Shown here one piece after another: positions 2,700-31,900 of a DNA stretch of 39,355 nucleotides. The notes beneath the pieces were generated by a model. The model saw only the letters and a list, made by a program, of their open reading frames with translations, was not told where the DNA came from and searched no databases. The stretch spans positions 4,329 to 43,683 of the forward strand of contig FN649733.1 of assembly GCA_000310025.1 (NCBI GenBank). The letters are read 5' to 3'. The number at the start of each line of letters is the position of its first letter. The first letter of the stretch is position 1. The translations under genes were made by a program, and so were the position numbers. Source of the DNA: Ectocarpus siliculosus. Taxonomy: Eukaryota > Sar > Phaeophyceae > Ectocarpales > Ectocarpaceae.

Positions 2700-5190
2700 G
2701 CCGGGGCGTTAGGATCCAGCCTCATTTTGCAGCTACCAAAGCTGGCGGTTCACGAGATACCCCGATCTCACGACAGCAGTAACTCCCAACCGCCAAACTC
2801 AGGATCCCCCTCTCAACAGTGCTAGGGACCGTATATCCGTCTTTGCTGGGTGGTCTTTCGAGGTCTAGATCCACTTGCGGAACCTCGGCCTACCCCAGGG
2901 ACAGGGGGGGCAGGCCGGGGAGGAGGGAGAGAAATATGCAAGGGCTCATACGCACACGTGGAGGATGGTGATGGTTAGCCTGTACTGCCGGGTCGAGAAG
3001 AGCTGGACACATTACAAAAAATGTAAATATTTGCCTACCGGTTCGAAAGGCCGTTCGGTCAGTTAAAAGTGCACTACTTGTACGGCAGTCGCCCAGAATT
3101 TTGGATGGTAAAGGAAATTACAAACGGCCCACGATTGAGGCAGCAGATACAGCACCACGGCTGCCCAGGCGATGTGTGTGTGTGTGTGTGGTGTGTTTTT
3201 TGTTTCCGGCGCCATCTGCCGTCTTTCAACAACGATATTGAGTTGGACGGTATGCTAGACGTGCCTGAGAATGCAGTGCGAGAAACCGTTTCTAAATCGG
3301 CTCACAGTTCGAGGAGAACGGCCTACAAACAGCAGTGGATCAGAGGTGTGTCCGTAAAAAACAAAAAAACAGCCAAACTCTGTGCAAACGCCTCTTAACA
3401 TTTTTTCGCGCTTCGCGCGATTTTTTATATATTACGTCCCCGGCTAGCCCTACCTATGGGCCCTGAGCCGCTGCCTCATGTCATGTCTTGAGTGGGCTTT
3501 GGTGCATTGTCTATGGTACACCGACTTAACACCTATCCTCTCATCGTTCTATGTTTGTCTTGGTCTACTGATTGCTGCATGACAGACTCTCCTCTTCATA
3601 AGAACCGGGCAAATCTCGTATGTTCGTTGCATGGATAGATACGACCTCCCTTTTTGTTCCTCCTCTGGATGATTTACTTGCCTTGGCTACAGCAGTAGGA
3701 GCAATGAGGAGCACGGTTCCTCGTTGCATAGACTCAAAAAGATTTCCCCTTAGCTGTTCGCCCCCGGGTAAATACACTCCGGCAGCAAGTGAGCTACATC
3801 ATCATGTAGCAATGTGTAGACTGCTGTATGTCCTACAGCAAACATCCACAGCTGTAGACTACAATCAGAAATCGCGTCCAAGATTGATTCTGTAGAATAG
3901 ATAGTGTAAGGTGTAGAGACATCAGCGAGATTTGAATGTGTAGGGCTCGGACTATTTTGGGCCAGCCCACTGGATGCAGGCGTGTGTGTTCATGCCACAT
4001 ATCGCACCACAGAGGAACAGACTCCATGGTGCCGGGCCACCGCCGTAATGCACACGGTAACACGCCACACACCACAACCACCACACCACCGAGATCACAT
4101 CATTCTCACAAGAAAAATTCCCTCGCATGCTCCTGCCTTTGGACTGTGCTCCGCTACAGCTTCACAGCTGATACAATCTCGTGCGAATGATCCAAGAATC
4201 GATGTCTGCACGCTGCCTACGTGTAGTACCGTAGCTGTTGTTGTTTACACTTCGAAGTGGATCTTTCTTAGGGCAGACCGAGACTCTGAAAGTAAGTTGA
4301 AAATCGATACTACACGTGTAAAGGGCCATCTGTCACCAAAATTTCTCAACACGAGAGCGATGAACCGCACTGAATGGCTCTTTCTGCGCTTGCATTTATC
4401 TCTCTCGCAGGGTTGTTAGAGTTGCCGACCTTAGCCATCGCCAGGTCACCAACTGTTTGCGTAACTCGTTATATCACCCACAGCGAACGCGCGATTGGCG
4501 TGCAAACGTTCTAAGCGCTCCTCACACGAAGCATCTACTCGAGAGCCTCTATTTACATCACGTACATACCAATCCTTACGACTAGCTGCATCGAAAGCGA
4601 ACATCATCCTTCCTTGGGCGAAGGACAGAGAAATACGGCGGAAACGGACGTTCCCTTTTTCATGGTTCTTGTCACAATTTCCATCGCCTCGCGATAATTA
4701 TCCTTGGTCTTCCTTGGTGTCTACCGTCGGGGCCATGTCCGATCCGCTATCTCAGTCAGCCCTCCCCTTCGGAGAAAGTGCGAACGATGCTGCACTGCCA
4801 GAACTCATCAGACTCGCTGCAAGGGTTCCGTAGAGCGCAAAAGGGGGAAGGGACAATCTTCTTCATGAACGAGTGACGCTGCACCATTTGAGGAGGTAGC
4901 ACGCAGTGTTGTGGACGCTTCCGCAAGTGCAAGGCCTCAAAAAATACTCCGAGGGAAATATTCAAGATTCAAAGTCACCGGACGGAGCACACATTCGGGA
5001 GCGGAAGGGGGTGTATGCTGCTGTATCGTGCGATAGGGTTTTTGGCCATGGTAGCGATGGGCCGTCGGCCTTGTTCGGTCAAATTAATTTCTATATGCAG
5101 AAAGGAACGAATAGAGCACTTCTTCTAGGGCTGCTTCAGGAGTAAGCGGGCACTTTTCTAGAGTTGTTTCGTGTGGCGTTGCTCGGGCTT
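2700..5190. other. Gene-free stretch between the decayed gene and the AGTRAP-like gene
   Basis: No conserved exon could be recognised on either strand; open frames here are short and of random composition. It holds a (GT)n tract near 3174-3194, a small hairpin near 3407-3423 (TCGCGC-TTC-GCGCGA) flanked by T runs, and three copies of the recurring ACAGCAGT/ACTGCTGT octamer before 3830, plus one at 3820. The right end probably contains the 3' untranslated region of the leftward gene. Confidence 0.6.
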
Positions 5191-7206
5191 CTATGACTCC
5201 CTATTGCTCCATATGTAGTAACATCTCGACTCCGGCCGCTTCCTGGCCTCTACACGTAAACATCCCTCTTTCTCACCATCGGGAGAACCAACGGGAGCCC
5301 GCTCTTCGTGAGTCGACATTGGTGCCATGTCGTACGCGCCACGCCCTCCCGCCGACTGGCGCCCTCCTTGCTTCGCGGGGGCACCCAAACGCTCTTGGGG
5401 GCGGATTGCTCCAGACTCCATTTCTTTGTAGAATCTCAAGAAGCAGTACACCGCCGCTAGCTTCGCCAGCATGTTGAGGATGAGCATGACGAGGCAAAAC
5501 GATGCTGTCGATCCGTCGAAGATGCCGGCGTCGTTGCTCCCTAAGAACGAGAACACATTCATGCAAATAAAGCGTTGGCAAAGGCGAAAGGCAGAGACGA
5601 TCACCATGCCGACATCTTCATTGGTCGATCGAGGCCGGTATGCATCGTGTACGTACGTCGTTTAGCACGACAACATGGTAAAAAAATTCAATGGGCTGTG
5701 CACGGTGCGCGTGGCTGCTACCTGTGTGTCAGGGGCAACCCTTTCGTCGAAATGAAAAACGTGTCTTGATGAACCTTCAAGAAACAGCCTTGCTGTGTGC
5801 ATGCCAGGGATGGTTAGCACGTCCGAGTGTACAAGTAAGCACGCCCCCGGTAACTTTTGAACAGTGTATTGAGTTGTCCGAGTCACTACAAAATCAATAT
5901 GCTCGGAGGAACAACAAGTGACAAAATATGTTTGAACTCGTCCAGCATGTTCAATTTGGCTTAACGTCTACGCCAATTATTGCAAAACTCACCCCAAATG
6001 GAGCAGAATATAATGTCAAGCAGAATGGAGAAGCAAAGCAATCCCAGATATCTGTGACGGTCGAAACGGGACGTGGACGAGAACGGCAGGCCGACGATAA
6101 GAATGCGTAGTTGGCACAACTCAACCCTGATGCTAAGTTGCACGCGTTGCTTGAAGAACACGATGCGTATTCACCACACCTCTAAAGTTTACCGTGTAGT
6201 GCGCGGTCTATTTTTTGCGTTTCGTAGTCCTGACAAGTATTTCTTCTTGAGATTTTGGCAGATCTGCTCGACCGAATGGTAGCATGATCCATGGGGCACC
6301 AGAATATGTATAAACTAGGCACAGTGGACGGTCAGCCTTCCATACGGAAAACAGCACACCGCAGCACACATAGCGCGTACAGCCCCACGGAAATAACACA
6401 GACAAATAGATGTGTGACCGATGACCTACACAATGACGAACCTCTCAACACATTCTGAACGTATATTTGCGTGCAGTTCAGCACCGGCTGCGTAGTACAA
6501 CTACATCGCATTCTGCTCATCTCATCTACTATATGGAATATCTCGACTGAAAACTCGGGAAACAACACACTACATTTAGATTGTTATCCTCGCTCCACAA
6601 AGTGCCTTCACAAAGAAGAAACTCACACTTGGGTGGATTGGAGGCTCTTGGTGTACACGCTGTACAATCCCCAGAGCCCCAGAACGACGTTATACGACGG
6701 GAAAGCTGCCAGCGAGCTGCAAACACACGTCCGGGTGAGGCTTGGTGAAATTATGACATTAGTAACACACACCACCGTGCTGTTGTTGATGAAATAGGTC
6801 AGTATTCGGTATGGACACGCTTGCTTCCTTTGTGCCGAAGAGTCGAGCAATGCCGGATGACACAATTCATTGTATCCTAGCCGCTACAGAGTGTCAAGAG
6901 CAGTATCGTTTTTATTGAGAAAACGTTAAACTTTCTGCTGCTGCTGCTGCTGCTGCTGTCGGTGGTCTCTATGTGAAGACGCTGACAAAGTGACGCCGGA
7001 TCATACAGTCGCATAGTCTTCTAATTTACACAACAAACCATACAAAGCCAGACTACTGTCCTACTCGCGCGGACGAGAGCACACTTCACCCAGACCAGCT
7101 TGGCCTTAAAGCTGAGATTCATAGTCTTCAAACATACCTGGCTTGCGTGAGGAGGGAGAAAAATACTTGCATCCACGCTGTTCGCTCGGCACTTTCCGGC
7201 CGCCAT
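5191..7206 (-). CDS. AGTRAP/ATRAP-like small multi-pass membrane protein
   Basis: Four exons join in phase: 7085-7206 (or from the ATG at 7122), 6627-6716, 5993-6051 and 5191-5540. Coding from 7122 gives 178 residues; the upstream ATG at 7206, in a strong AAGATGG context, adds 28. The protein has three clear hydrophobic segments, SLAAFPSYNVVLGLWGLYSV, VYLGLLCFSILLDIIFCSIW and ASFCLVMLILNMLAKLAAVY, then a short YCFLRFYKEM turn and a hydrophilic tail. Order and spacing match type-1 angiotensin II receptor-associated protein (about 160 residues in animals), including the LGLW and ILLDII positions and the Tyr/Arg/Glu-rich end of the last segment. In animals this protein sits in intracellular membranes and controls receptor trafficking; algae lack that receptor, so the role here is unknown. 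All splice sites are GT-AG and all phases agree. The N-terminal exon is the least certain. Confidence 0.78.
6935..6958. repeat. (CTG)8 microsatellite in intron 1 of the AGTRAP-like gene
   Basis: Eight perfect CTG units, reading CAG on the sense strand of the surrounding leftward gene. It lies inside the intron between 7084 and 6717. Confidence 0.9.
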
Positions 7207-8815: not shown

Positions 8816-11800
8816 TCACACTAGGGTTGGCCGATCGTTGTTGGCAGCAAAGCTGTCCGGTAGGCCGAGGGGCGCCCCCTCATCGTTTGTGTTGTCCACC
8901 TGCGACAAAAAAGGGTACAGCAAGCGGCAAGAAGCAACCAGGAATCAGGAACAAGCATTGGTCGTCGCAGAGTTCATCGGCAAGATTAACGTGAATCAGT
9001 ATCACACATCTCGTGTTCACCAACAAAAAGGATAGCGCGCACCTATCCCATGAGCATGAGTGTTCCCTCAAGTAATCGAATCAGACCATTGCGCAAACAT
9101 GATCTTCTTACACAGAAACCTCTAGGATATAACCACCCCAGCGAGTAACACGGACACCGACATGTAGGTAGCGAGACTTGTAGGGTAAGCCACGATTTTT
9201 TTTATATTCCGACACATGCACTATCAGTACCATGTTCTGTTGACCAGTTGAAACAATAAGAAACTTGCACGTCGTGGTAAGCCAATCGTCGTTGCCATTT
9301 TCAAGTTGTGATGACACCGCAGAGTGGCGCACAACTTTCGCATGCCAACGCGGTCATACTCTCAATCGAGTAGATGCCGTAGAAAAAGACAAAATTTTGA
9401 GAGCATCCTTCCGGCAATGGCATCGTGGCGCCCACCCTACACCCACCGGGAACAACTCCCACAGCTTTATCCCGCAGGAGTCAAAAGCTTTCTCCACGCG
9501 CTCCATCTCTTTCTGCTCTGGCCAATCGCCGTCACGTGACACCAGTAGCGACCCCGTATACGACTGCCCCGCTGCCGTAGCAGCACCGGCGTAGTAGAAC
9601 ACGCCTGCCGTGCACACGCGGTCAAGAAAAAGAAGCCGAATCAGCGTGTAGGTAGGTGGTCAACGTGCCCATCCGTCTCCCGAAACACCGCGCGAAAACC
9701 GAACTGTTTGCCATTGTTTGCAGCCAGTCTTCCAGGATATGGTACAGGATCAGATACGGGTAGCACTAGCGCAGAGGCATAGAAACAAAGAGGCACGCAC
9801 CGCTATCATGCTGTCACTCATCACTCAAAAACGTAATCACTCAAATCACGCTATCACTCAATTGTCTACGACTCTTGACTCAACCCCACAAATCACTCTA
9901 TGACTCTATCAGGCAGTCAGTCACTCTATGCCTGACCCCATGACTCGATCCCACAGACCACTCTACGACTCTTACTCCTATCATTCTGTCGCTCTGACTC
10001 GTATGACGCTATCACTCTTATGACTGACTCAATCGCTCACCCCAGGAAAGGTCGTCCGAAACGTCGATAATTCGCCAGTACTCGTTAGAGACGACCCCGT
10101 TGTCTAGCACCGAGAATCGGAACGTTCCAGGAGTTACCGCCGGCTTGACGCGGTAATGCCGTCGTCGCCAAACCTGCAAAAGGAGAGCCCCAAATGTCAC
10201 GAGTGGTGGTATATAGAGGTGTGTCTTATAAAACCGTGAAGATGCGACATGATACAACATGCTGTACACTGTAGATCCACACCAGACAATATTTTTTTAC
10301 ACCATCCGGCTGTCACGAGGCCTTCAACTCGCAGGGGGGTTCTGCGGCAGCTGTTTGGGAACAAAATACCGCGCATGAACAATAAGTTCGCACGAGTACT
10401 CTGCTTCAGCTCTCAAAACGAAAACAGGAAGAAGGAAAGATTGCATGTGGTCTCTTACCGATACGCGAGTTGTACAAGTGTTACCCCATCACAGCAGCCC
10501 TCTTACACCGATGGACACATTCCCTAGCAGGCAAAACATGCCCAATACCACGGTCGGGCATACAATCAATGGCAACAGCCCCCATCGAAACTTAGTTCGC
10601 GAGACGGCAAGCCTCACCTCCTCTCCCTTAATCGTCACCACCTTAAACACCGGGTCGTACCACATCTGGCCCTCCCCGCGACCGCGGTAGAAGATCTGGT
10701 GTTGGCTCGGGAAGAAATCATAGGCCGGGTTTTGCCCACAGACCTGCCATGAGCAATGAGAGAGGAATCAGGCCGACAAAGATGAGCATTTGAAGCAGAC
10801 GACGGCGGGGTGTTTTGCCGAGATACTCCGGCGGCGAAACGATCGTTTAGGCCGGCAGAGAAACCAGAAATATGGTATCTTGTGCGTTGTCCTACAAAGC
10901 GCTTGGACGTACGACTGCTGTGGCACATGACTATCATTTCAAAAGCTTCGGAGACTGCTGTAGGAACAGGCCCGCCATGATGGGATCTGAGATGACTAAC
11001 TGTAGCGTACAGCAGTAGTACAAAATCAACGCATCAACAAGCACGACGTCCTCGAGGACCAATGTGTGTGCCGTCGCCGCGTAAGCTTGGCATTCCAGTG
11101 AGTCTTGCGTCTCAACAGCACCCGCTCCCCGTCAGCCATTCTCGACACTATCCATCAGATGGTCCCCGGTGCACCAGGGACATACCACTTACACGTACCA
11201 CTTTAGGGTTAGCAGCCGCTTACCACTTTCCAAGAACGGCCACTTACGACTTTGCAAGAGTAGCCACTTACCACTTTCCAAGAGTAGGCCTCCTTTCCCA
11301 GCCACCCCATGAAGAGGTCCTGTGCAGTCTCGTGCGTCAGGGGTTTCCCTCGGAAGGTGGCCTGCGCAGGCGGGTCGGGGAGGGTGGGGATCTCCGCCGA
11401 GTTGCACATGCAGTTGTTCTTCTGCAGCACGCAGAGCGAGAACATCTCCATCGTCTTTGTCTCGTACGAGGTGATGCATCGGTAGGCGCAGACCTGTCGG
11501 GTAGTTTTTCCGCGCGGGGTACAAACGCGTCTGTCAGCAATGCATGCATGCATCCGGGGTGCGGTTTGGCGGGCGTAGACAGGTACGGTAGTAAACAGCA
11601 GCAGCCGAAAAAAATCGAACCACCGCCGGCTTGATGCAAAATACAGAATGCACCACCACTTGAGAGCAACCTGGGAGGGAGTAAAAAATTTCAGGTTAAA
11701 AGAAATCGACGCTTGAGAACTTGACCATAAAAGGACAGGCGCTCAGTTATTAACCCAATACTAAAAACCCATTTGGAAGCTGATGGCGTTATTTACCCCA

Positions 11801-18487: not shown

Positions 18488-21400
18488 TTAAAAAATAACT
18501 CTCACCAGACACGAACCCTTTGCCCGAAAAGACAAGACTGAGCTGGCTAATAGTTGCATCTCTCTCTCTCGCTCTCGGTCGATTTACCCTTTGTCCTTGC
18601 AACAGCCGTCGGCGATGTCTGTCATGTCTGTCATGTCTGTCATTTCTGTCATGTCTGTCATGTCTGTCATGGTGTGCCGAACGACCGCCTTGGTTTATTT
18701 GCGTCCCAAGCTCGTGTGGCCACCGTTGACGGGTTTTCTTGGCGCCTTCTTGTTCTTGAAGGGTCACACAGAGTTTACCCTGGCCAGACTTGACCTCCGC
18801 CTGCACCTGTCGGGGGTGGTTGAGGTCATGCACACTCTAGGGCGATTTTCTTCTTTTTTTTACCCTTGGCGCACCGCAGTGAAATATTTATATGGTAGGA
18901 CTCCCGGCGTCGCGAGTTTCTCTCTCCTTTCTTCGTCCTCTTGCTCTGCACCGTACGCCGGCCTACCCAGTGTACACAGTGCGGCACCACTGGACAACCT
19001 GGGAGTTGGAGAAAAGTCAGGCTGAACGGAGAACAATAACCGACCGACAAAACGCAACATCTCATCTCCACGTTGCCCCGCGCAGGAGACATGGGCTGGC
19101 GTCCGGTGACCGGCAAGGGCGCCCGCGTTCCCGGCCCCAACCCCAACTCCTCCTACAGGCTCCGATACGTACCCGCATCCGCCGGCCAGACGTCGGGGCG
19201 GCGAGAGGCTTCCTTCGCCATCACGGGGGCGCACCTCCACAAGACGTGGTCGGCGTACTGCCGGTGTGTGGGGGGGGACTCGCCGGTGTGGGACCGTAAC
19301 TTTGTGAGTGGTTTTGGGGGGAAAGACGTGGCGATGAGCGGCGGGTGTTTAGACTGGTGTATTGATGGGAATGCAGTCGTCCTCGCTTTTGGGGCCATTT
19401 CTTTTTGACAGGTGTCCGTAAATCGGGGAAGTGTCCTTGTAAAATTACCCCCCTCCCTGTGTTTTTACAGTCTGCGGGGCACCATGCTCCTGAAGAAAAT
19501 GGTGTCCATAAAGCGGGGAGTGTCCTTATGTTTTTATTTCATCAGTATGACTCAACGAATCCATCTCTATCGAAGAAAAGAGTCTAAGATAGATTAGCAA
19601 TGAATCCATAGCGTCAGCGAAAGCTCTGTTTTATAGCTGGTGTCCCATAAATTGGTGTTACACGTGCAGCAGGTCGGTCTTTCGCTGCTTGTTTGTCGTA
19701 TTGCACCGTCCGTCGAGCCCGTCTGTGTTGCCGGTTCCACGAAGGTGAATGCCACAAAACCACATGGAATGGGTGGTACTCGTTTTGTTTCTCCTTCCTC
19801 TCTGCGCAGACGTTGCCCCGGGCTGTTTTGATAATCGCGCCTTACGTATGCGTCGCCATCACGGTGCCGCTGTTTGGGCACTTGGTTTGCTAGGTTACGC
19901 CGCGAGACCCCCCACCCGTTCGGGTCTTGGTCTTGTCACACCCTTGCTCAAACGGTTCTGACCCGATGAGCACGACAACAACCATGACGTCACGCCCTCT
20001 CTGTTCACACGAACAGGCACGTTCGACGTGCTGGCACGCGCAGCGGTCGCAAGCAGTGCGTTGGAGCATGTTGTCCGCCCCGCATAGAAACCGCGTGTTG
20101 TGTGTCGCTGTACGCGCCGTTCTTGCTCTTGCTTGGCGCGTGTCCCGTCTCTGTGTATGCTTAGGGTTAGGGTTAGGGTTAGGGTTAGGGTTAGGGTTAG
20201 GGTCAGGGTTAGCGCTAACCGCTCATCGAAACGTTGAAAGGTTCTGTTCTCACAATATCAAAACCTTGCCCTTCCAGCTGCGGCGCTTGTTCTGCGTCCT
20301 CTCGAGATACGAGACGTTGTCGGCGACTTCGGACGGGTACCAGATGGCCTTCCCGGCCTCGGGCTTCCGGCTGCTGCGACACCTGGTGTCCGTGGACTGC
20401 GAGTGCTTCGCCAGCCCTCTCAACTGCACCTTGTCAAGGTGTGGTCGAATCGAGTTTCGATGTGCGTTGCCCTGTTGTCAAGGTGTGTTTGAATCGCGGC
20501 TCGATATGGTGTGCCACGTTGTCAAGGTGTGGAGTCGGGTGCATTTCTGGTCATGTCGTGGTGACTGCGCAAGGCACAATCTGCTGTTGTAGTTCCCAAA
20601 CTAGTCGTTTTCGGAGAATCAAGAGGGGTCAGTAGAGTTGGATCTTTGTCTTAGGAAGTCCCGGCCTGTTGATGTACTGTAGTTCTCTGAAAAGCTGGTT
20701 GGTGACAACGCCACTACGCTTGTTCTGAATCTCTCGCAATTCTGGTCCGATCTGGGCGTCCGTCCGTCCGCATGCATGCATGCATGCATGCCAGATTTTG
20801 CTCCGTGGCGTACGACACGGATAAGTTCTTCGGAAGCGAGGGCAACTTCTTTCAGTCGGAGTACCAGCAGGTACGACTATCCTGGAACTCTTACCTACTG
20901 GTCCATGTTTGCCTGTAGATTGTAACGTTGACCCCTTGCGATCTGCTTCGCTATTATCATGGAGTACTCGAAGTGTTGACCCAGCATAGTCTGGGTGGGT
21001 ATTACTGCATTGGTATCGCCTGCCTTCACACGGTCTTGTCCTATGATCGGCACGTTGAGCGTCGTTTGACGTTTACGATAATATAGAGCTCGACATTACT
21101 TCAGGCCCAGAGCCTTGAAGATGCACATGCTGCTCTTGCTTCGTACCTCTCACCTTGAAAACTCGCTCTTATCTCCCACTACCCTTGCTTTGCTTGCTTG
21201 CTTGTTGTCCCCCATCCTCTCCCTGTGGACGCCTGGCTTGTTTCAGGGATCCTTCGAGGTGTGTACAGTATGTGGCGTCAAGATTCATTTGCGGTTTTCT
21301 CTACGTTGCACGGAATGGAATACGCGGTATGCCTTGCGCGGTTGGTTGCGCATGCGGGCGTACCGTTAGAGCCGGGGGAGGCGACGGTATTGGCTCAAGG

Positions 21401-24790: not shown

Positions 24791-25860
24791 TCACATGACA
24801 CCGCTGCTGGTATCCCCTAGACCACCCCCAGACGCCCTCAACCGGGCGACCAGGCCAGGCGGGGGCGTATCGTGCGTGCCCGAGAACCGAGCGACGCAGT
24901 TGGCCATGCAGCCCTGGTCGAATGGGTTGTGGTACTGACCGCTGTAGTTGGGCGCTAAGAGGTAGTCTACCCGCCCCATCATGTGATGCTCGCTGGTGGT
25001 GAGGTTCTGCCTGATGAGTTGGCTGAGGCGAGGCGAGGCGAAACGACAAAGAGCAAAACCGTTGAGAGCGATGTGGAGCAGGTCAGGGATGGGTGGGCGG
25101 GGCACATAGGGGAGCGTACCCAGGGTATGAGTTTTTTCGCAATACTCATACCTGACGTGCGCGCACGCACCCCACTCAAGATGCACGCGTACGTGCCGCA
25201 GGAGCTATCTCTATCGTTTCCTACTGCATCTGCATCTGTACAATAACCCAAAAAATCACTGGTACAAGATCAGCGGGGGCGAGACTACAGCTACCCAGTG
25301 CGCGAAGACGGCTATCGTTTCCTACTGCATCTGCATCTGTACAATAACCCAAAAAATCACTGGTACAAGATCAGCGGGGGCGAGACTACAGCTACCCAGT
25401 GCGCGAAGACGGCTACAGCCCATTGAAATGGTGCCATGCAAGTCGAGACGGACTCACGCGTGATACATGAAGAGCAAAATCCCGAAGCCGGCGAAGAGGA
25501 ACGAGTACGATCCAGACACCACCACCGCCCAGCTCAAGCCTATGTGCCACATCCAGTCCACGCACATGATTGTGTAGGACACGGTGCTGACGAGCAAGGA
25601 AGAGCGTTGCGGAAACAGCGATAGAGGGTCAGAGCCAAGACGTACCTCACACGACCGCCAGGCAGGGGAGAGCGGTAGGGTTAACACACCGATCGCGCAA
25701 ATCACAGTCTCATAAACTGACCGAAGCACATAAATCCACCAAGAAAACAGCGGCACCTCTCGCGCGAACGACACTCTCCGACAGCGACCGACACACTTTA
25801 AATTAACAATAAAACAGCCGCACCGCCCTGCAGCAAGCAGCAGCAGCAGCCGCACCACTC

Positions 25861-28955: not shown

Positions 28956-31900
28956 GGGGGGGGGGAGAAATGCAGGTGGGCAAGATGTGAATACCGGTAG
29001 AAAACTGCCCTTTTTACCCCTTGATACCCTGCCATCCAGAAGCACTATCTCGACGTTACAGCAGTGGCCTCGCACCTATACTATATACTTGTAGCACAAA
29101 GCAACCATACAGATGGAAAACCAGTCTGTGTTTAGGCATCGATGGGATTCGATGCTTGATTGCTTCTATTCGATTGGGTTGAGTCTTTGCGCCACCCAGC
29201 GATGTCTCCGTTCCTTGTGTCGCACTGCTGCCACACACCTGCTTCTTCTTGAGAGCGAGGTCCAGCGGCGTCTCGTTCTTCTTATCTCTGGCGTTCACGT
29301 TAGCCTTTGCCTGCCCACGGAACAGGACAAGCTTAGAGTTAGCGGCCTTCAATTCTTCTACGAGGATTGTTTTGTCATGTACAATACCTCGTGGTTACTG
29401 TTGGTAGATAAAACTCGCGGTGAACCAAAGGAGCCCGAGAGCGGAGAGGTCATGAAAAGAATAACCTTGTACATCCCCGCGATTTATGCCTATTCTTTGA
29501 TAACGAGCTTGCCTGCCGTGTCCAGGGGTAAAGGCATCAGCGCGCTACCATAGCCACCAACAACGTCATCTCCTCGCCAAAAATAGCGCCGGCACGGTCG
29601 CGCCACGGGCAGACTGCCTGCCTTACCTCGAAGACAAGGTATTCCGCCGCATCTCGGTTCCCCCTCAGAGCGGCAAGGTGCAGCGGAGTCTGGCCGTACA
29701 CGTCCTCTCCCTCGGGGTCCTGACCGGCCTTCACCAGCATCGACAGCACCTGAACATGACCTAACGTTGCATCATCAATAGCATCAAGACGCGGAGAGAC
29801 AACAAAATGGTGGAAGTACCTCTTGAGAACCTCATATGAGACCTGCTTCCTTCGTGCATCAGCATCAAAACGAGGACAGGCATTAAATGGTTGTACCTCC
29901 TTCCTAGGTACGGTCGGCGGTCCTGGTAGGTATGGTGCCGCTATAGAGGGCAGTGCCGTTATTCCTAATGGGGATTGTACTGAGAAATGCACTTGTGCCA
30001 AGCGATTTCGGTGCCGCCTGTAGAGGGCATTCCGCTATTGAGGGTACCGTTATTGCGGACCGTCGACTGTATATCAGATGGCCCGCTTCACTCATGATAA
30101 ACGTGCGGTCTTCTTTTATTCGCGAGAAAAAGGTCTGACAAGGAGGCGCGTTCGCTTGGAGCCCCTTTCCATTGAGGTGTTACATGTACACAGCAGCTAC
30201 TGTACTGATAATGACAGCATTGTGACGACGACAACACCAACAAATGTGTACAATGCTCCTCTCATTAAAATCAAGCCAAATCCGAGAGCACACGGCACCA
30301 TATACTTCCAACGCCACTAACTGGGGCTACGCCACGAAACGAGTACGCCAGCTGCGCCCACCTCCCCTACGCCACCTTTCACCCACACTGCATCATAGCA
30401 TGACTGGACTCCAGCGCGCTGTAACCGCCATTGAAACACATTGATGTGGCTGCCATTGTTGAGACCGCGAGGCGCACAAGAATACTAGGGGTACCTTTGT
30501 AGGCTGCCCAGTGCAACGCGGAGTCTCCCACGCTATCGACGGACGCCGGGTCACAGCCGTGATTGCTCAAGTATATCACCAGCTCCACGAAGCCGTACTG
30601 CGCCGCGATGACGAGTGCCGTGCAACCCTGCAGGCCAGACACATGAAATCACCACCACCACCACCAAAAAACAAACGACGGGGTTGGGGTACAGTACAGG
30701 GGACGCATTGCCACAGCAGCATCGGGAAAACGAGTGGTACATCGTTTGCCGGATACAGCGGTGTGGAGTATTCTACCCGCGCCACCGAAACAGTATCCTG
30801 AAACCGTCGAGACACAAAGCTGCATGGAGAGATCTACTTAGATCTACGTGATTCTCATCCCACCAGGAGTAAATTACGTCACACCATCAAATCACACGTG
30901 ACAGGTCTTCCGTCGGTTGGGCGGAGGAAGGGAAGGGAAGGCCCAAGACTAAATACACATACCACATCAGCGGCTGATTTTCAACATCAACAACATCACC
31001 AGAGACAGAAACCCAAAACTCATGCTTGTCATATGTTCTACCATGCCTGGTTATCGCGGCCCAGGCTGTCCATGCCAGCGGCTGAATTCCATCACCAAAG
31101 CGACAGCAAACACCAACGCTCAAGCTTGCCGTCTGTTCTACGGTCCATACCGCCTGTTCCACGGTACGTACTTTCTGTTCCACGGCGCACACCGTCTGTT
31201 CCACGGTACATACCTGGTTATCGCGGCCTTCTGGGTCCGCGCCTCCGGGCCCGAGAAGCCATGCCGACGCTCTTAGCCTCCCCTCCGTGGCCGCCCAGTG
31301 AAGTGGAGACATACCCACGGGGTCCTTGCTAAACTCGTTTGGGGGGCACCCCGCATCTGCAACAGCAGCAGCAGTAGTGCCGTGATCGTCGCAACAACAA
31401 TGGCACACGCAGCAATATTGCATAGGTTCGTCGCATCTATTCTGGCGCCAGTCTAAAGACACCCTTCGTTCGTTGTACGTTTAGACGCATCAGCTGGGGT
31501 CAAGTTGGGCGGGCAAACAGCAAACTATTAATAAGTACCATGTTGGAATTGGAATATCGTTGATTTAGCTATGGTCTAGGGAATGCTGTCATCATAAAAA
31601 GCTAAGCTGCGTTAGGCGTTACTATTCGTCGTGTGGGAATACAATAGCTTCTATTTAAGAGCAATCTTTCGGTAGTACGGCGGACTGGATTTCTACTCTC
31701 TGTATGATATACACAGTATGGCATTTGCGCAACAACGCACACAACAGCGACAGACAACAGAGGGATTCTCAAAGTGTCTAGTCGACGCACGCCACAACAG
31801 CAGTATAATAGTAATAGTTCTATAATAGACAGTTGTTGCGTTGTCCAAGCTTGTTCTCGACACGTCATGCTCCCACTTCCTCCTCAAGCTCGTCACATGA

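Follow-up and report, generated by a model that had tools for sequence, protein, structure and literature searches.

Exon 5 of a gene of the violaxanthin de-epoxidase (VDE) family, in a 39,355-nt window of the Ectocarpus siliculosus genome (contig FN649733.1), ends in a small minisatellite of three head-to-tail 24-nt units on the minus strand, and each unit carries the exon end together with a donor site (Table 1). The array was probably made by a tandem duplication across the exon-intron junction. In the most probable reading, the first, exon-proximal donor (donor 1) is the main one, the other two (donors 2 and 3) see little use, if any, and the whole arrangement is tolerated and not selected. 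The gene is referred to below as VDR, a provisional name that follows the first-pass annotation and plant VDR sequence.

Table 1. Positions of the VDR features and of the tandem arrays found at or near other splice junctions; a slash marks the exon-intron border.
Feature	Position	Strand	Details
VDR unit 1	11263-11286	minus	TACTCTTGGAAAGTGGTAAGTGGC, YSWKVVSG; donor 1 GTAAGT from 11271
VDR unit 2	11239-11262	minus	TACTCTTGCAAAGTCGTAAGTGGC, YSCKVVSG; donor 2 GTAAGT from 11247
VDR unit 3	11215-11238	minus	CGTTCTTGGAAAGTGGTAAGCGGC, RSWKVVSG; donor 3 GTAAGC from 11223
VDR decayed fourth copy	11192-11214	minus	AAAGTGGTACGTG starting at 11204; in-frame stop TAA at 11211-11209
VDR exons	13140-12740, 12069-11904, 11493-11272, 10743-10618, 10173-10041, from 9604	minus	homology and consensus splice signals
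VDR exon 5 (donor 1 used)	11272-11493	minus	ends ...GKEAYSWKV; both splice sites fit the consensus; PF07137 matched after joining of the exons
VDR intron 5 (donor 1 used)	10744-11271	minus	528 nt; acceptor AG at 10745-10744
VDR exon 6	10618-10743	minus	homology and consensus splice signals
PCIF1 donor array	20427-20532	plus	44-nt unit, three copies, 13-nt junction core intact; exon end TTGTCAAG/GTGTGG at 20438/20439
Ubiquitin-conjugating enzyme (UBE2) donor array, random locus L026	6034-6350		56-nt period, about six copies; exon ends YPFKAPK/GTAAGG, GT at 6043
WD40-like donor array, random locus L027	725-940		exact 108-nt duplication (two copies); exon end ACGACCAG/GTAGAT
VDE paralogue acceptor array, L011	4397-4880		TTGT(G/A)CAG/ACGACT at 4416, 4681 and 4779, preceding the actual acceptor at 4868
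Ankyrin gene array	31129-31214	minus	21-nt unit, four copies, in frame and open; directly after exon end 31214, GATAACCAG/GTATGT
DHHC gene tandem duplication	25211-25412	minus	exact 101-nt duplication, about 45 nt inside the intron after the DHHC exon; without the donor placed at 25457

The array was detected by TRF with a score of 106, 3.1 copies and 82% matches, and the pairwise identities of its units were 92, 83, and 75%. Under relaxed TRF settings it reached position 11192 (4.0 copies) and took in the decayed fourth copy. When the whole window was subjected to dinucleotide shuffling, an array with a score of at least 106 and at least 2.8 copies was obtained in 0 of 100 shuffles, the best score being 67. 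The array and its donors are real and go beyond chance. The three 24-nt copies had already been reported in the first-pass annotation, at 11218-11289, which is the same array with its register shifted by 3 nt.

The reading frame was open across all three units and ended at TGC TAA (11214-11209), and the GTAAG core of the donor was intact in every unit (3/3). The earlier claim of three donors in the same frame, each unit with its exon end and donor and their use adding 8 or 16 residues, was borne out by the sequence and by this open frame. All three isolated substitutions between the units fell at third codon positions; this count excludes the opening codon of unit 3, in which every position is changed. 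This distribution would fit selection on the coding sequence, the substitutions being too few for proof. Unit 2 lacked both the tryptophan and the G at position -1 of the donor.

The structures of the genes were set by homology, consensus splice signals and by eye; for VDR, the start of exon 6 at 10743 was placed as previously claimed. Membership of the gene in the VDE lipocalin family (PF07137, curated cut-off of 25.7 bits) was examined with the translation of exon 5 joined to the exons that follow, which scored above the cut-off whichever donor was used: 54.6 bits with donor 1, 51.1 with donor 2, and 54.2 with donor 3. This match agrees with the assignment of the gene to the VDE family and of the array site to the lipocalin domain made in the first-pass annotation. 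The exons of the gene fell below the cut-off when they were scored singly. A search of the genome with the same profile yielded nine matches, four on contig C25, four on contig C9 and one in the window gene; seven of the nine were over the cut-off, and the match in the window gene, its exon being scored singly, was under it. The family had two loci besides the window gene, one on each of these contigs, presumably corresponding to VDE (C25) and VDL (C9). Searches for other relatives of the VDR protein gave no pattern match among the viral contigs and five stretches with a pattern match among the genome contigs, none of them a relative by tblastn, and no orthologue was found there. Comparison with the sequences of solved structures returned 17 sequences at E ≤ 1 (best value 0.59), which was taken as no relative.

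Intron 5 appears to be older than the array, as judged from its position and phase, which are common to VDR and the paralogue on C9. The latter has a phase-0 intron at TWYK/IMG, equivalent to SWKV/VCG of VDR; the VDE paralogue on C25 has no intron at this place and carries one of its own after FDCQ. Intron gain by tandem duplication has reportedly occurred in a potato gene (PMC4974935), where a new intron arises, whereas in VDR only the donors multiply in an apparently older intron. A gain of intron 5 by tandem duplication was ruled out by the shared place and phase in the C9 paralogue, unless the intron was gained twice independently. Dual-specific splice sites of the type described for UBC were also ruled out, because the array ends at 11192 and the acceptor of intron 5 lies outside it. 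The length of the intron equals 22 x 24 nt; this was taken as a coincidence, the repeat being absent from the 3′ end of the intron.

The strength of the donors was evaluated with a simple weight matrix based on 17 donors of the same genome whose positions were set by homology, a small set to which several donors from arrays contributed, and in which the scores ranged from 6.3 to 11.9 bits. On this scale donor 1 scored 6.8 bits, donor 2 scored 4.2 bits, and donor 3 scored 5.7 bits. The consensus complementary to U1 was matched at seven of nine positions by donor 1 and at six of nine by each of the other two. Donor 1 would therefore be favored among the three on these scores, yet none is strong and all must be rated as weak. 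Splicing from donor 1 gives the junction SWKV/VCGQNP without inserted residues. Three consensus donors at the exon end (11271, 11247, and 11223) share one common acceptor before 10743, the arrangement of alternative tandem donors, and alternative splicing at the array is, from its sequence, possible.

These observations can be combined into a probable course of events. The end of exon 5 would lie in a minisatellite produced by duplication of the exon-intron junction, for which slippage at the 7-nt repeat internal to that same junction (AAAGTGG TAAGTGG) is a plausible seed. The first copy would have been kept as the exon end, and the remaining copies would have become intron. The main mRNA would then be given by donor 1, and donors 2 and 3 would contribute at a low level at most; their 8 or 16 extra residues keep the frame, and such leakage may be harmless. 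Under these circumstances the array would be tolerated without being selected.

Arrays at splice junctions were also found in other genes. The first-pass annotation had placed the VDR array in a pattern together with cases in PCIF1 and in a DHHC gene. The first of these is a true donor array and further ones were found, but the DHHC duplication that was located is intronic; the first-pass annotation may have meant a different duplication in that gene. In PCIF1 the next exon starts at 20795 and reads (R)FCSVAYDTDKF, and splicing from the later donors, at +44 and +88, would shift the frame. The intron of the UBE2 gene contains about five further copies of its unit (counted by eye), two of them with GTAAG or GTGAG; the 56-nt unit shifts the frame, and the reading frame runs into stops before the fourth copy. 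The 108-nt unit of the WD40-like gene corresponds to 36 codons and contains an in-frame stop. The units of the ankyrin array each begin with a donor-like GT, and the ankyrin repeat is resumed in the following exon; this array abuts its junction more than it spans it. On the acceptor side, the array of the VDE paralogue included a variant copy near 4515, the copies lying about 90–100 nt apart, with a single wider gap of about 166 nt.

The VDR array was the only one of the four junction-spanning donor arrays that was in frame and open, since in PCIF1, UBE2, and the WD40-like gene the frame is shifted or interrupted by a stop. With the ankyrin gene included, two of the five arrays at donors were in frame and open, a proportion not far from chance that speaks more for tolerance than for selection of isoforms. 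In addition, the continuity of the PCIF1 and UBE2 proteins requires the first copy of the junction, which supports the same order of donor preference in VDR. The VDR array thus has the look of a tandem duplication across an exon-intron border, of which this genome holds several, and not of a purpose-built switch.

Other candidates were set aside. A 39-nt array on C18 (L037, G000:C18:1271900-1273800), with GGTAAGT in most of its units, was rejected as a donor array, there being no evident coding exon beside it. Three more arrays (L021, L033, and L017) were judged by eye, and none of them evidently spans a junction; that of L033 lies slightly inside an intron.

The frequency of such arrangements was estimated by sampling a 10-kb locus from each of the 20 contigs C1–C20, always at the same fixed position, for a total of 174,086 bases without N. 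They contained 26 arrays with periods of 12–120 nt, covering 1.25% of the sequence, and this abundance counts against a purposeful VDR array. Two of the 26, those of the UBE2 and WD40-like genes, were shown to lie at an exon-donor junction, whereas the remainder went through a motif screen only. With relaxed TRF settings, 194 arrays were collected from 23 sources; in the random loci most arrays were screened by motif, and five stretches there were read closely. At the gene density and intron number assumed for brown algae, about 110 introns would be expected in the 20 loci. By our own arithmetic on these assumed values, chance placement would account for about 1.4 arrays at donors and an equal number at acceptors, and the recurrence therefore shows no clear excess. 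In a survey of ubiquitin-conjugating enzyme genes, 10 of the 29 matches were taken as loci, and a donor array was detected in one of them, L049, which coincides with L026; two other loci (L041 and L046) had one short array each, not placed at a junction, the exon edges of this survey not being mapped singly. No genome-wide excess of exact GGTAAGT pairs 9–39 nt apart was found (24 vs. 59 for the reversed control pattern), a comparison in which the base words may differ in frequency and in which the VDR array is not among the 24, because its donors 2 and 3 differ. A broader proposal, that this alga undergoes recurrent junction duplications in which arrays of donors or acceptors grow from exon edges into the introns of many genes, the exon-proximal copy is used and an in-frame minority, VDR among them, gives new isoforms, is put forward only tentatively; it is possible, but we consider it doubtful.

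Several alternatives to the reading with donor 1 as the main donor and the array tolerated were considered. One of them holds that the three donors are maintained for regulated isoforms carrying one or two extra octapeptides. In its favor, none of the VDR units shifts or closes the frame and each preserves the GTAAG core (3/3), the three products differ little in Pfam score (54.6, 51.1, and 54.2 bits), the three isolated substitutions (the first codon of unit 3 again excluded) lie at third codon positions, and the donor of the ankyrin gene is likewise adjoined by an in-frame array without stops. Nevertheless, functional alternative splicing is unlikely in view of the stops or frame shifts met in three of the four junction-spanning donor arrays, and of unit 2, which has neither the tryptophan nor the -1 G and has the lowest donor score. 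It is comparably improbable that donor 3, the nearest to the acceptor, is the main one and that the protein normally contains a 16-residue insert: donor 1 scores higher, and in PCIF1 and UBE2 the later donors would break the frame, so that in those genes only the exon-proximal copy can give a functional product. Protein homology alone stays compatible with donor 3, because its use restores the same SWKV/VCGQNP junction exactly and yields a product of 54.2 bits in Pfam; its 5.7 bits are near the 6.8 of donor 1, and among similar donors the intron-proximal one tends to be preferred by the splicing machinery.

The extra donors could also have a role that does not depend on splicing from them, such as binding additional U1 and thereby aiding a weak donor. 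Donor 1 is indeed weak among the 17 reference donors, and the 44-nt unit of PCIF1 is best conserved at the junction itself (TTGTCAAGGTGTG, in 3/3 copies). Conservation among few copies is, however, weak evidence, and the UBE2 array keeps GTAAG or GTGAG in only two of its approximately five extra copies (by eye), so that we regard such a role as very unlikely. An assembly artefact, conceivable in so far as one assembly was read, is scarcely credible, given that the VDR copies differ from each other, that the array contains no N and that the locus is a single match in the genome. The preferred explanation, a tolerated minisatellite with donor 1 as the main donor, was retained.

The VDR array belongs to a known kind, that of tandem donors made by tandem duplication. 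Tandem donors are known in human and mouse genes (PMC2423196), where, as in VDR, several close donors at one exon end share a common acceptor. The emphasis of that source is on overlapping extensions of 3–6 nt, with use of both donors shown for a subset, whereas the VDR donors are spaced by 24 nt, belong to three head-to-tail copies of a unit that joins exon end and donor, and are known from the genomic sequence. The human UBC gene and other repeat-embedded introns (PMC10809524) resemble VDR in having one splice site per repeat unit, so that a ladder of products is conceivable; as described there, each UBC site doubles as donor and acceptor, and the repeat contains the whole intron, whereas only the donor end of the VDR intron is in the array. 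Tandem duplication and intron sliding have also been described in Drosophila (PMC2891723), where a duplication near a splice signal likewise makes new splice choices and steps in multiples of three permit sliding. The Drosophila cases given there concern new introns or new intron positions, in contrast to VDR, in which the intron appears older and the donors alone multiply. Internal tandem repeats in human genes (PMC2812944) are similar in that the copies alter the arrangement of exons and introns and can bring cryptic splice sites into use; those reported are repeats within exons of recent human paralogues, and those of VDR are copies of an existing exon-donor junction. In Caenorhabditis elegans, minisatellites have been connected with alternative splicing through regulatory motifs (PMC4039745). 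Of the papers on brown algae or Ectocarpus that the literature searches listed, a small part of all matches, none dealt in its title with duplicated splice sites of this group, which is no proof of absence; one diatom paper that names VDR and Ectocarpus was listed by a separate search.

The recurrence of arrays at junctions is the most interesting part of these results and deserves a proper genome survey. If the recurrent process is true, the genome would constitute a natural experiment on the choice of the spliceosome among near-identical adjacent sites, and PCIF1, with its identical 13-nt junction present three times, would allow a direct test of donor choice at equal sequence. If donors 2 and 3 of VDR are used, a chance duplication would have supplied a protein of a photoprotection family with in-frame isoforms; should they stay unused, the array would show how freely decoy donors are tolerated.

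As a separate observation on the tandem repeats of the window, a telomere-like TTAGGG repeat of 8.7 copies was located at positions 20161-20212, internal to the contig and about 24 kb from its start.
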